DNA of 64,000 nucleotides, from positions 186,001 to 250,000 of the forward strand of contig JAJDTU010000013.1 of NCBI GenBank assembly GCA_022826965.1, read 5' to 3'. The stretch is from Dehalococcoidia bacterium. GTDB taxonomy: Bacteria > Chloroflexota > Dehalococcoidia > Bin125. A program made the translations under genes and the position numbers. Position 1 is the stretch's first letter, and every line of letters starts with the position of its first letter. The notes beneath the pieces were generated by a model. The model ran no database searches. It had not been told where the DNA came from and worked only from the letters and a program-made list of their open reading frames with translations. Below, in pieces: positions 12,871-15,893 of this stretch.

Positions 12871-14111
12871 TGGCGGACCCGGAGCGCCGCTTCTACCGAG
12901 CCGCGCGGGTCGCCAACCAGGCGATGGACGGCTGGCTGCCCGACCACGCGGTCGGTGTCGCCAACGGGAAGATCGTCGATGTCCTTCCCTCCGCCGACGC
13001 TCCCGCGCACGAGACCGTTGACCTTGGCGACGTTTCGCTCCTGCCCGGCCTCGTCGAGGGCCACACCCACATCCCCTGTCCGCCCCGGGTAGACGCCTTC
13101 GACATCATTTCGGTGGAACCGAATGAACCGGCCCTGATGCGCGCCGCCCACGCCGTCGGACTCGCGCTGCGCAGCGGGATCACCACGATGCGCGACCTGG
13201 GGTCGAAGAACGAGGTCGTCTTCGCCGTCCGCGACGCGATCGCCTCGGGCGTCATTCCCGGACCGCGACTGCTTGCCGCCGGCGCGCCGATCACCCGCAC
13301 CATGGATCACTGCTGGTTCTGGGGCGGCGAGGCCGACTCGCCCGAGGCGGTGCGCGCCCAGGCGCAAGTGACCGTCGACGACGGCGCGGACGTGCTCAAG
13401 GTGATGGCCTCGGGCGGGAACTTCACGCCAACTTCGAACCCGCGCGACCGTCAGTATCCGCCGGAGACGATCCGCGAGATCGTTGAGGCCGGCAAATCAA
13501 CCGGCATCGAGGTCGCCGCGCACACCCACGCCGCCGAGGGCATTCGCGCCGCCGTCGAAGGCGGCGTCAGGCACCTGATCCACTGCCGCTGGCTGTCCGC
13601 CAATCCGGAAGAGGGGTTCAAGTACGAGCCCGAACTCGCCCAGCGGATCGCCGACGAAGGCATCTGGGTCAATCCGACCATCGGCCTCGGCCTGCTCGCC
13701 GCCGAAGCGCGACAGCGCGGCGACACTGCGCCGCGTCGCAACCCCAATCTGCAAGGACCGTCGCCGCGCCAGCAGGGGCTTGAGATCCTTCGCGACATGC
13801 GCGATCGAGGCGCCCGCTTCACGTCCGGCCTCGACATGGGCATGGCCTACGCCGACTTCAACCGGGCGACGGCCGAGGCCTGGGCCTTTGTCGAGGACAT
13901 CGGGCTCAGCGAGTGGCACGCGCTGCGGATCATGACCTGCGACACCGCCGCTGCCATCGGAGTCGGAGATCAGGTCGGCCGGCTCCAGCCGGGTTTCGGC
14001 GCCGATCTTGCCGCCTTCACAGGCGATCCCGCCGCCAACATCCGCGACCTCGATCAGCCGGTGTTCGTGATGCAGGGCGGCGCTATGGTCGTCGGGGAGC
14101 CCTCACCCTAA
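12870..14111 (+). CDS. Amidohydrolase family protein (imidazolonepropionase/prolidase-like)
   Basis: 413 residues. It has the Amidohydro_1 composite barrel: a short N-terminal beta domain, the metal pair in LPGLVEGHTHIP, a Lys in DVLKVMASGGN for the bridging ligand, then EVAAHTHAAEG and LIHCRW for the later His residues. SGLDMG carries the final Asp and LQPGFGADLAAF closes the fold. Typical substrates are cyclic amides, ureas or carboxy-peptides. It is translationally coupled to the crotonase gene. The final codons (Ser-Pro-stop) lie inside a hairpin repeat element, so the C-terminus was apparently reshaped by it. Confidence 0.87.
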   Translation: MADPERRFYRAARVANQAMDGWLPDHAVGVANGKIVDVLPSADAPAHETVDLGDVSLLPGLVEGHTHIPCPPRVDAFDIISVEPNEPALMRAAHAVGLALRSGITTMRDLGSKNEVVFAVRDAIASGVIPGPRLLAAGAPITRTMDHCWFWGGEADSPEAVRAQAQVTVDDGADVLKVMASGGNFTPTSNPRDRQYPPETIREIVEAGKSTGIEVAAHTHAAEGIRAAVEGGVRHLIHCRWLSANPEEGFKYEPELAQRIADEGIWVNPTIGLGLLAAEARQRGDTAPRRNPNLQGPSPRQQGLEILRDMRDRGARFTSGLDMGMAYADFNRATAEAWAFVEDIGLSEWHALRIMTCDTAAAIGVGDQVGRLQPGFGADLAAFTGDPAANIRDLDQPVFVMQGGAMVVGEPSP

Positions 14112-14190
14112 CCCTCTCCCAGAGGGAGAGGGGCCGAAACTCCCGCTCCCGGTTGCCCCCTCTCCCTGAGGGAGAGGGCTGGGGTGAGGG
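14100..14190. repeat. Family A hairpin repeat pair, inverted, between convergent genes
   Basis: Two copies face each other: CCCTCACCCTAACCCTCTCC from 14100 and its inverse ending GGCTGGGGTGAGGG at 14190. Each holds its own hairpin, CTCTCCC-AGA-GGGAGAG and CTCTCCC-TGA-GGGAGAG. It separates the convergent amidohydrolase and thioredoxin/NHL genes and could terminate transcription in both directions. It fills the gap between them. Confidence 0.75.
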
Positions 14191-14199
14191 CCGGCCGCC

Positions 14200-15705
14200 C
14201 TACAGTTTCAACACGATCTCCCGACTCTGCCGCGAGTCCAGGTCCAGATGCACAATCCGGTGGTTGTTCGTGTCGGCCACCAGCAGTGAGCGGCCGGGAC
14301 CGTTGGTCAGGCCTCCGGGTTCGTCGAGCTGAACCTCGCTGAAGCTGCCCAGCGCGTCGCCGTGGCCGCCGACCAGCGTGTTCACGTTCTCGGTCTTCGG
14401 ATAGACCTGTTTGATCTTGTGGTTGAAGGTGTCGGCGACGTACAACTCATCGCCGACGCGCGCCACATCGAGCGGATGCTGCAGCTTCGCCACCGAGCGG
14501 CCGCCGTCGGCGTCACCGAAGTGGAACAGCCCGCCCTGACCGGTCTTGCCGATGAAGGTCGTCGTCCGACCGTCCGGATCCCAGCTAATCTCTCGCACGC
14601 CGCTCGATTCTGAATCGGCGAAGGCGAGACCGCTCGGACCAGGGGCCAGACCGGAGACCTGAGCCAGCTCCGACTGCATCCGAGGGCCATCGACGATTCC
14701 TTCGCGGCCGGAACCGCCCCAGGGACCGACGTAGGAGGCGTCACCAGCCTGGTCCCCGAGCGGCAGCCGCCAGATCTGGTGGATCCCGGCCATCGCGATG
14801 TACAGGTCGCCGTCGTGCACTGCGACATCCCATGGCGAGCTCAGCGCCGTCCGCGTCGCGGGCTCGCCCGAGGGCATCATTCGCGCCTGCTCGCCCGTGC
14901 CGGCGATCGTCGACACGCTGCCGTCGCTCAGATCGATCCGCCGCAGGGCGTGGTTCTCGTTGTCCGCGACGAACACGTAATCGCCGTAGACTTCGACCCC
15001 CTGCGGCTGATTGAACTGCGCCTCCGACGCTGGCCCATCCTTGAAGCCCGCCTCCGACCCACCGATCACTTGCGACACGTTTCCGTCGACGTCGGCCACG
15101 ATGATCCGGTCGTTGTTGCTGTCCGAGACGACCAGCCGACCCGAGGCGTCATCCCAGGCGACTTTGCCCGGGAACGACAGCGCGCTGTCGCGACCCGTCT
15201 CCCTGACCAGGCCCAGATCCTTGCGCGTCAGCAGCTGCTCGGCCTCGTACTCAGCCAGCCAGCCGTCGATCAGCGGCGAGGCCATCTCCTCGGTCAGTTC
15301 GCCCTCGTGAATGCCGAGCACGTTGCCGCGCGGATCGATGAAGTACAACGTCGGCCAGGCACGCGCGCCGAAGGTCTGCCAGTACTTGAAGTCGGCGTCG
15401 TTGAGCACCGGATGCTCAATCCGCAGCCGCAGGATGGCCTGGCGCAGATTCTCCGTCTCGCGCTCAGTCGGGAATTTGGGCGAGTGGACGGAGACGATCT
15501 GCAGGGTGTCGGCGTAGCGTCGTTCGAGCGTCCGCAACTGCGGAAGGACATGGAGGCAATTGATTCAAGCGTAGGTCCAGAAGTGCAGGATCAAGAGCCG
15601 TCCACGGAAGTCGTCCATCGACATCTCGCGACCGGTGTTGAGCCAGGTCATGCCGTCGGGCACGGCGGGCGCGGGTGTCTTGCCAAATGCGCGTGAAGTG
15701 GTCAT
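14200..15705 (-). CDS. Thioredoxin-fold / NHL beta-propeller selenoprotein (TGA read as Sec47)
   Basis: 501 residues if the in-frame TGA at 15565-15567 is decoded as selenocysteine. From the ATG at 15705 the frame stays open on both sides of this single TGA. The local sequence is FWTYA-U-INCLHVLPQL, while homologues of this thioredoxin-NHL family (NHLRC2-like) read FWTYCCINC there; the TGA falls exactly on the first Cys of the redox CxxC, giving UxxC (U47, C50). A thioredoxin-like domain (1 to about 150) precedes six or so NHL blades (about 160-500) such as VVSDSNNDRIIVADVDG and ADTFNHKIKQV. No signal peptide is seen. The reading from 15537 alone would lack the first strands and the redox motif. 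No sel genes are in the window. A nonsense mutation is the alternative, made less likely by the exact placement. Confidence 0.8.
15532..15567 (-). promoter_or_regulatory. Candidate bacterial SECIS element downstream of in-frame UGA
   Basis: The UGA codon is at 15567-15565. On the coding strand, CCGC-AGTT-GCGG (15543-15532) forms a short stem with its loop 25 nucleotides after the UGA, within the roughly 16-37 range described for bacterial SECIS elements. The second loop base is G, as those elements require. The stem is only four pairs (five if the A-T pair closes), with a possible GT/AC extension across a bulge, so support is moderate. Confidence 0.5.
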
Positions 15706-15772
15706 GCGAATCTCGTTTCGTGTGGTCTCAGGCTAGGGCCTGTTTACCGACCGCCGCCGCGGAGCGCCGGAC

Positions 15773-15893
15773 CCTCACCCTCTCCCTCTCCCAGGGGAGA
15801 CCTGCGCGTAAACCAACCAAAGTCGGCCCCGCGCAGGCGGGGCCGCGCAGCGCCTATCTGGTAGCGTGGCCCCCGCCTGCGCGGGGGCGACTT
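15773..15893. repeat. Family A remnant plus inverted family B hairpin repeats
   Basis: A partial family A copy (CCCTCACCCTCTCCCTCTCC, from 15773) is joined to GCGCGTAAACCAACCAAAGT and a family B hairpin GGCCCCGC-GCAG-GCGGGGCC (15825-15844). An inverse family B copy ends with GGGGGCGACT at 15893, so the two B copies form a near-perfect inverted repeat of about 25 bases. It lies between the selenoprotein gene start and the end of the PQQ dehydrogenase gene. Nothing else is seen in 15706-15943. Confidence 0.7.

Follow-up and report, generated by a model that had tools for sequence, protein, structure and literature searches.

A probable selenocysteine-containing member of the NHLRC2/SOQ1-type thioredoxin-NHL proteins in a Dehalococcoidia genome

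The DNA analyzed here, referred to as the window, is a 64,000-nucleotide stretch of a Dehalococcoidia genome (G000, contig C2, positions 186001–250000). It contains a minus-strand thioredoxin-NHL gene which, we are confident, encodes a selenoprotein: an in-frame UGA would be read as selenocysteine (Sec) under the direction of a hairpin within the gene, giving a product with a Sec47/Cys50 redox pair (Table 1). An earlier note on this DNA had proposed a selenoprotein at this locus, and the decoding machinery of the genome, the alignment of Cys and TGA among homologues and the presence of a SECIS-type hairpin all favored that interpretation.

Table 1. Positions in the window of the thioredoxin-NHL gene and its features.
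Feature	Position	Strand	Remarks
Thioredoxin-NHL (NHLRC2-like) gene, probably Sec-containing	14200..15705	(-)	ATG 15705, TAG 14200; 501 residues with TGA read as Sec
Putative selenocysteine codon, in-frame TGA	15565..15567	(-)	Residue 47, the U of UxxC (UINC)
Cys50 codon	15556..15558	(-)	Putative resolving Cys of UINC; residue nearly invariant
Thioredoxin-like domain (Thioredoxin_8 / AhpC-TSA)	15241..15678	(-)	Residues about 10–155
Six-bladed NHL beta-propeller	14212..15180	(-)	Residues about 176–498
Bacterial SECIS-type hairpin, CUUCCGC-AGUU-GCGGACG	15529..15546	(-)	Begins 18 nt after UGA; in frame, codons for LPQLRT

Inspection of the reading frame confirmed that the TGA is the sole stop between the ATG and the TAG, at the coordinates the earlier note had given. 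When the codon was read through, the surrounding sequence was LILHFWTYA-U-INCLHVLPQL, and the product had a Thioredoxin_8/AhpC-TSA domain and NHL repeats. This protein aligned end to end with human NHLRC2 (6gc1; E 3.8e-101, residues 12–493) and with Arabidopsis SOQ1 (7djj; E 2.4e-99). In these alignments the TGA lay opposite the first Cys of C-I-N-C in YCCINC, as the earlier note had claimed in assigning it to the first Cys of the family's CxxC. The start that a mechanical ORF caller would pick is a TTG at 15537, the position that the earlier note had given for a truncated annotation. A window-wide mechanical collection of TGA-containing frames in which a Cys codon lay three codons from the TGA yielded 20 candidates, and one, the codon in Table 1, was protein-like on both sides by eye. 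The neighboring genes, for an amidohydrolase and a glucose/sorbosone dehydrogenase-like protein, do not indicate a substrate. Both flanking intergenic stretches (window positions 14099–14191 and 15764–15893) contain GC-rich, REP-like inverted repeats of the types CCCTCTCCC...GGGAGAGGG and CCCCGCCTGCGCGGGG.

The earlier note had reasoned that an organism with such a gene must possess selA, selB, selC and selD, and the full set was present in this genome (3.0 Mb in 14 contigs, 97% complete). A tRNA-Sec gene (selC) with anticodon TCA was located at C2:185296–185389 (70.2 bits against a cut-off of 47), approximately 0.6 kb to the left of window position 1 and approximately 15 kb from the thioredoxin-NHL gene. 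The other three genes were on three further contigs: SelA on C11 (522.9 bits, cut-off 267.9), SelD on C12 (351.9 bits, cut-off 125) and SelB on C4, as a 695-residue ORF whose winged-helix domain matched with an E value of 1.3e-17. In addition, selD (G000:C12:264989–265930; L038:1501–2442) has its own in-frame TGA, in the sequence ARCGGUGSK, which we take to be the known Sec site of a known kind of selenoprotein. Together, these findings indicate that the genome is able to decode UGA as Sec and that it carries a second, classical selenoprotein gene.

Comparisons with relatives showed that the TGA is a recurrent state of this codon. Named records placed the close relatives in the Dehalococcoidia (Chloroflexota), and isolate names suggest that several derive from sponge metagenomes. 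Within a set of 61 near-relative genomes, the TGA was found in all 14 other genomes of the same genus (in one, the gene is split over two contigs), as well as in four more genomes of the family and one genome of another family, in keeping with the earlier argument that a chance nonsense mutation was unlikely. Among 393 genomes sampled across the class, a homologue with a single TGA was found in 44 and one without any TGA in 49, as counted by hand from the table with the Cys forms limited to those covering the thioredoxin region. One TGA was present in 58 of 81 matches from a sample of 400 genomes of the phylum, and in three of eight matches from 198 genomes of the class to which a Gemmatimonadetes hit belongs. 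Within the Chloroflexota, TGA forms spanned many further families. The earlier note had suggested checking homologues for Cys or TGA at this codon, and at approximately 140 loci it was TGA, TGC or TGT with a single exception. That exception, L156 (Candidatus Anammoxibacter), has Ser in the sequence FWTYCSVNC. In the A2 alignment position 47 was invariably Cys or Sec, and Cys50 was nearly invariant. The active-site motif was AUINC in the window protein and CU(I/V)NC or GUINC in the other Sec forms.

SelA co-occurred with the TGA. In the class sample SelA exceeded the threshold in 43 of 44 Sec-form genomes, the 44th (G356) having a fragment; among the 49 Cys-form genomes, 37 had it (Fisher p 0.002, scoring G356 as SelA-negative and ignoring relatedness). 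A tree built with the Sec/Cys residue masked contained one group (SH-aLRT 98) of 47 Sec rows and four Cys rows. The nested Cys rows, L042 (G167), L188 (G655), L081 (G187) and L073 (G336), are best read as reversions from Sec to Cys. G655 lay beside the Sec form of G685, G187 and G336 lay beside that of G458, and G167 had neither a detectable SelA nor the hairpin. The Gemmatimonadetes Sec row stood apart from the Sec clade on a long, poorly placed branch, which may reflect either transfer or independent gain.

To be read as Sec, the UGA would depend on the hairpin downstream of it. The published bacterial SECIS model has a small loop with a G among its first two nucleotides, a UGA-to-loop distance of 16–37 nt and an energy limit of -7.5 kcal/mol (PMC13188914). 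The window hairpin agrees with this model, having the loop AGUU, with G in its second position, a UGA-to-loop distance of 25 nt and a minimum free energy of -7.6 kcal/mol, which is weaker than in its relatives and barely passes the limit. The window copy differs from the CUUCCGC-AGUU-GCGGAAG of relatives by its ending, GCGGACG, and as a result has one U.C mismatch and five contiguous base pairs compared with seven in most relatives.

A hairpin with at least four contiguous pairs from the loop was present in 62 of 64 distinct Sec sequences and in none of 66 Cys sequences (Fisher p 2e-35, kinship ignored). The two exceptions, L185 and L190, had a mismatch inside the stem. All seven pairs were kept in 57 of the Sec sequences, and the loop was AGUU or GGUU in every one of the 64. 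This contrast and the pairing counts are partly built in, since it was the Sec sequences that defined where the hairpin lies, and these are related and not independent. The more independent part of the hairpin evidence comes from double changes and quiet synonymous sites. Across 34 representatives, 97.1% of pair cells were standard, and four of the seven pairs had changes on both sides (C-G to U-A; U-A to G-C; C-G to U-A or G-U; and G-C to C-G). The covariation was matched by none of 500 shuffles, and sliding the partner by 1–3 columns reduced pairing to 34–71%. The synonymous sites of the hairpin were quiet to a degree equaled in two of 115 six-codon windows. The peptide sequence there is dictated by the hairpin, being PQLR(K/R/T/E) with hardly an exception in Sec forms, whereas Cys forms mostly had PDL, PEL, DEL or EDL.

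The hairpin signal is local and comparative, as 71 nt around the TGA folded as one piece had an energy that was not unusual (z 0.49). An Rfam search of the window gave no match. The exact hairpin core, CCGCAGTTGCGG, occurred once more in the genome, in what looks like an ordinary biotin-carboxylase-like reading frame where no in-frame TGA precedes it; by itself, therefore, the core is not a selenoprotein marker.

We considered whether the UGA might be decoded as Cys or another ordinary amino acid, by a suppressor tRNA or by sulfur taking the place of selenium. Most homologues have Cys at position 47, from which it follows that Cys is chemically workable there. We nevertheless regard this explanation as unlikely given the canonical tRNA-Sec and selA, selB and selD in the genome, the co-occurrence with selA, the restriction of the SECIS-type hairpin to TGA forms and the in-frame TGA at the Sec site of selD.

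Selection was estimated on either side of the codon in 16 near relatives. The pN/pS ratio was 0.148 over the 44 codons upstream of the TGA and 0.103 over the 120 codons downstream, which indicates that purifying selection acts on both sides. The conservation of the upstream part disfavors both a decaying gene, a condition that the earlier note had raised as a possible refutation and of which we found no sign, and a downstream fragment that functions alone.

These values bear on a second explanation, regulated readthrough, under which termination is normal, or the product is the downstream part translated from the TTG and devoid of the first strand and the active site. Termination competes with Sec insertion in bacteria generally, and the TTG is available as a start. 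We consider regulated readthrough very improbable, however, as the 44 upstream codons are conserved as protein (pN/pS 0.15), Cys homologues are full-length, and a thioredoxin fold would be expected to break without its first strand and active-site helix. The downstream part alone was rejected as the product on the basis of the upstream conservation. A pseudogene, or a sequencing or assembly error, with the TGA a nonsense mutation or a miscall, would fit a frame broken by a stop codon in data from metagenome assemblies, but was rejected as hardly credible when the same TGA recurs in independently assembled genomes from many projects, strikes the one codon that is otherwise Cys and is flanked by sequence under purifying selection; this repeated, codon-exact conservation also answers the sequencing error that the earlier note had named as a risk.

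The selenoprotein reading is also consistent with the predicted structure. An AlphaFold2 model of the window protein, built with 25 homologues of the locus, had a pLDDT of 94.5 and a pTM of 0.93, and its best PDB matches were NHLRC2 (TM 0.91) and SOQ1 (TM 0.93), with both domains covered. The model has the NHLRC2/SOQ1-type architecture of a thioredoxin-like domain followed by a six-bladed NHL propeller, with residue 47 immediately preceding the first thioredoxin helix (48–63). The CCINC of NHLRC2 is situated in the inter-domain cleft, the region in which conservation is concentrated (PMC6107167).

Based on these observations, we propose that SelB and tRNA-Sec decode the UGA as Sec, directed by the hairpin downstream. 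Sec47 and Cys50 would then constitute a UxxC redox pair, sited at the N-terminal end of the first thioredoxin helix and turned toward the inter-domain cleft as in NHLRC2 and SOQ1, a placement transferred from the NHLRC2 structure. Most likely, Sec47 would make a nucleophilic attack on a disulfide or other oxidized group of a propeller-bound partner, after which Cys50 would resolve the mixed selenide-sulfide so formed. Human NHLRC2 was inactive when assayed for insulin reduction (PMC6107167), so a catalytic role of the family is presumptive.

Human NHLRC2 (6gc1) has the same two-domain order and fold as the window protein over its whole length, with 40% identity in the structural alignment. The active-site position and a conserved WPT with a cis-Pro are shared with NHLRC2 and with the bacterial Cys-form CC(I/V)NC homologues. 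The window protein differs from these at two active-site residues, with Sec in place of the first CxxC Cys and Ala in place of the Cys before it (AUINC rather than CCINC), and from NHLRC2 in having no C-terminal domain. It consequently departs from the strict CC(I/V)NC active site of the NHLRC2/SOQ1-type family, a motif that is not universal there, as GCINC occurs among the Cys homologues. The lumenal domains of Arabidopsis SOQ1 (7djj, 7djk) likewise combine a thioredoxin-like domain and an NHL propeller, at 38–40% identity (TM 0.93 for 7djk), but SOQ1 is a Cys form with three further parts: a HAD domain, a membrane helix and a C-terminal domain. Bacterial UxxC selenoproteins of thioredoxin fold (thioredoxin, the Prx-like thiol:disulfide oxidoreductase and the thiol:disulfide interchange protein) and TlpA/ResA-like UGC proteins resemble the window protein in having an N-terminal Sec in the redox motif and an in-gene SECIS-type hairpin, but none of those listed has an NHL propeller.

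A review from May 2026 catalogs, in its Table 1, 119 prokaryotic selenoprotein families or subfamilies; a thioredoxin-NHL protein is not among them, and "NHL" is absent from the text of the review (PMC13188914). NHL was likewise unmentioned in a 2022 review, a Sargasso Sea study and a 2025 predictor paper. A search confined to the open literature, with subscription journals and preprints outside its scope, found no NHL selenoprotein, and none of the NCBIfam models (June 2026) reached its cut-off on the window protein (P0001).

As far as the open literature shows, the protein is thus a new Sec variant within a protein family already known, and it adds an entry to the bacterial selenoproteome. 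We think it probable that it represents an unreported family, the Sec form of NHLRC2/SOQ1, which is ancestral in much of the Chloroflexota and also occurs in the Gemmatimonadota, and in which Sec marks the catalytic nucleophile and so, as a more reactive, trappable natural variant, would make the chemistry of NHLRC2 and SOQ1 testable. That Sec has been selected for at the first active-site Cys is an argument for genuine redox enzyme activity in the family and for the residue at this position being the one that attacks. Standard gene callers would truncate a large number of Chloroflexota genes. The near-invariant hairpin and the nested reversions, including at least one in a genome with no detectable selA (G167), offer a good natural series for the study of Sec/Cys exchange. 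The Sec form is widespread in the phylum, and its human relative, NHLRC2, is indispensable in mice and carries mutations in FINCA disease of humans (PMC6107167).
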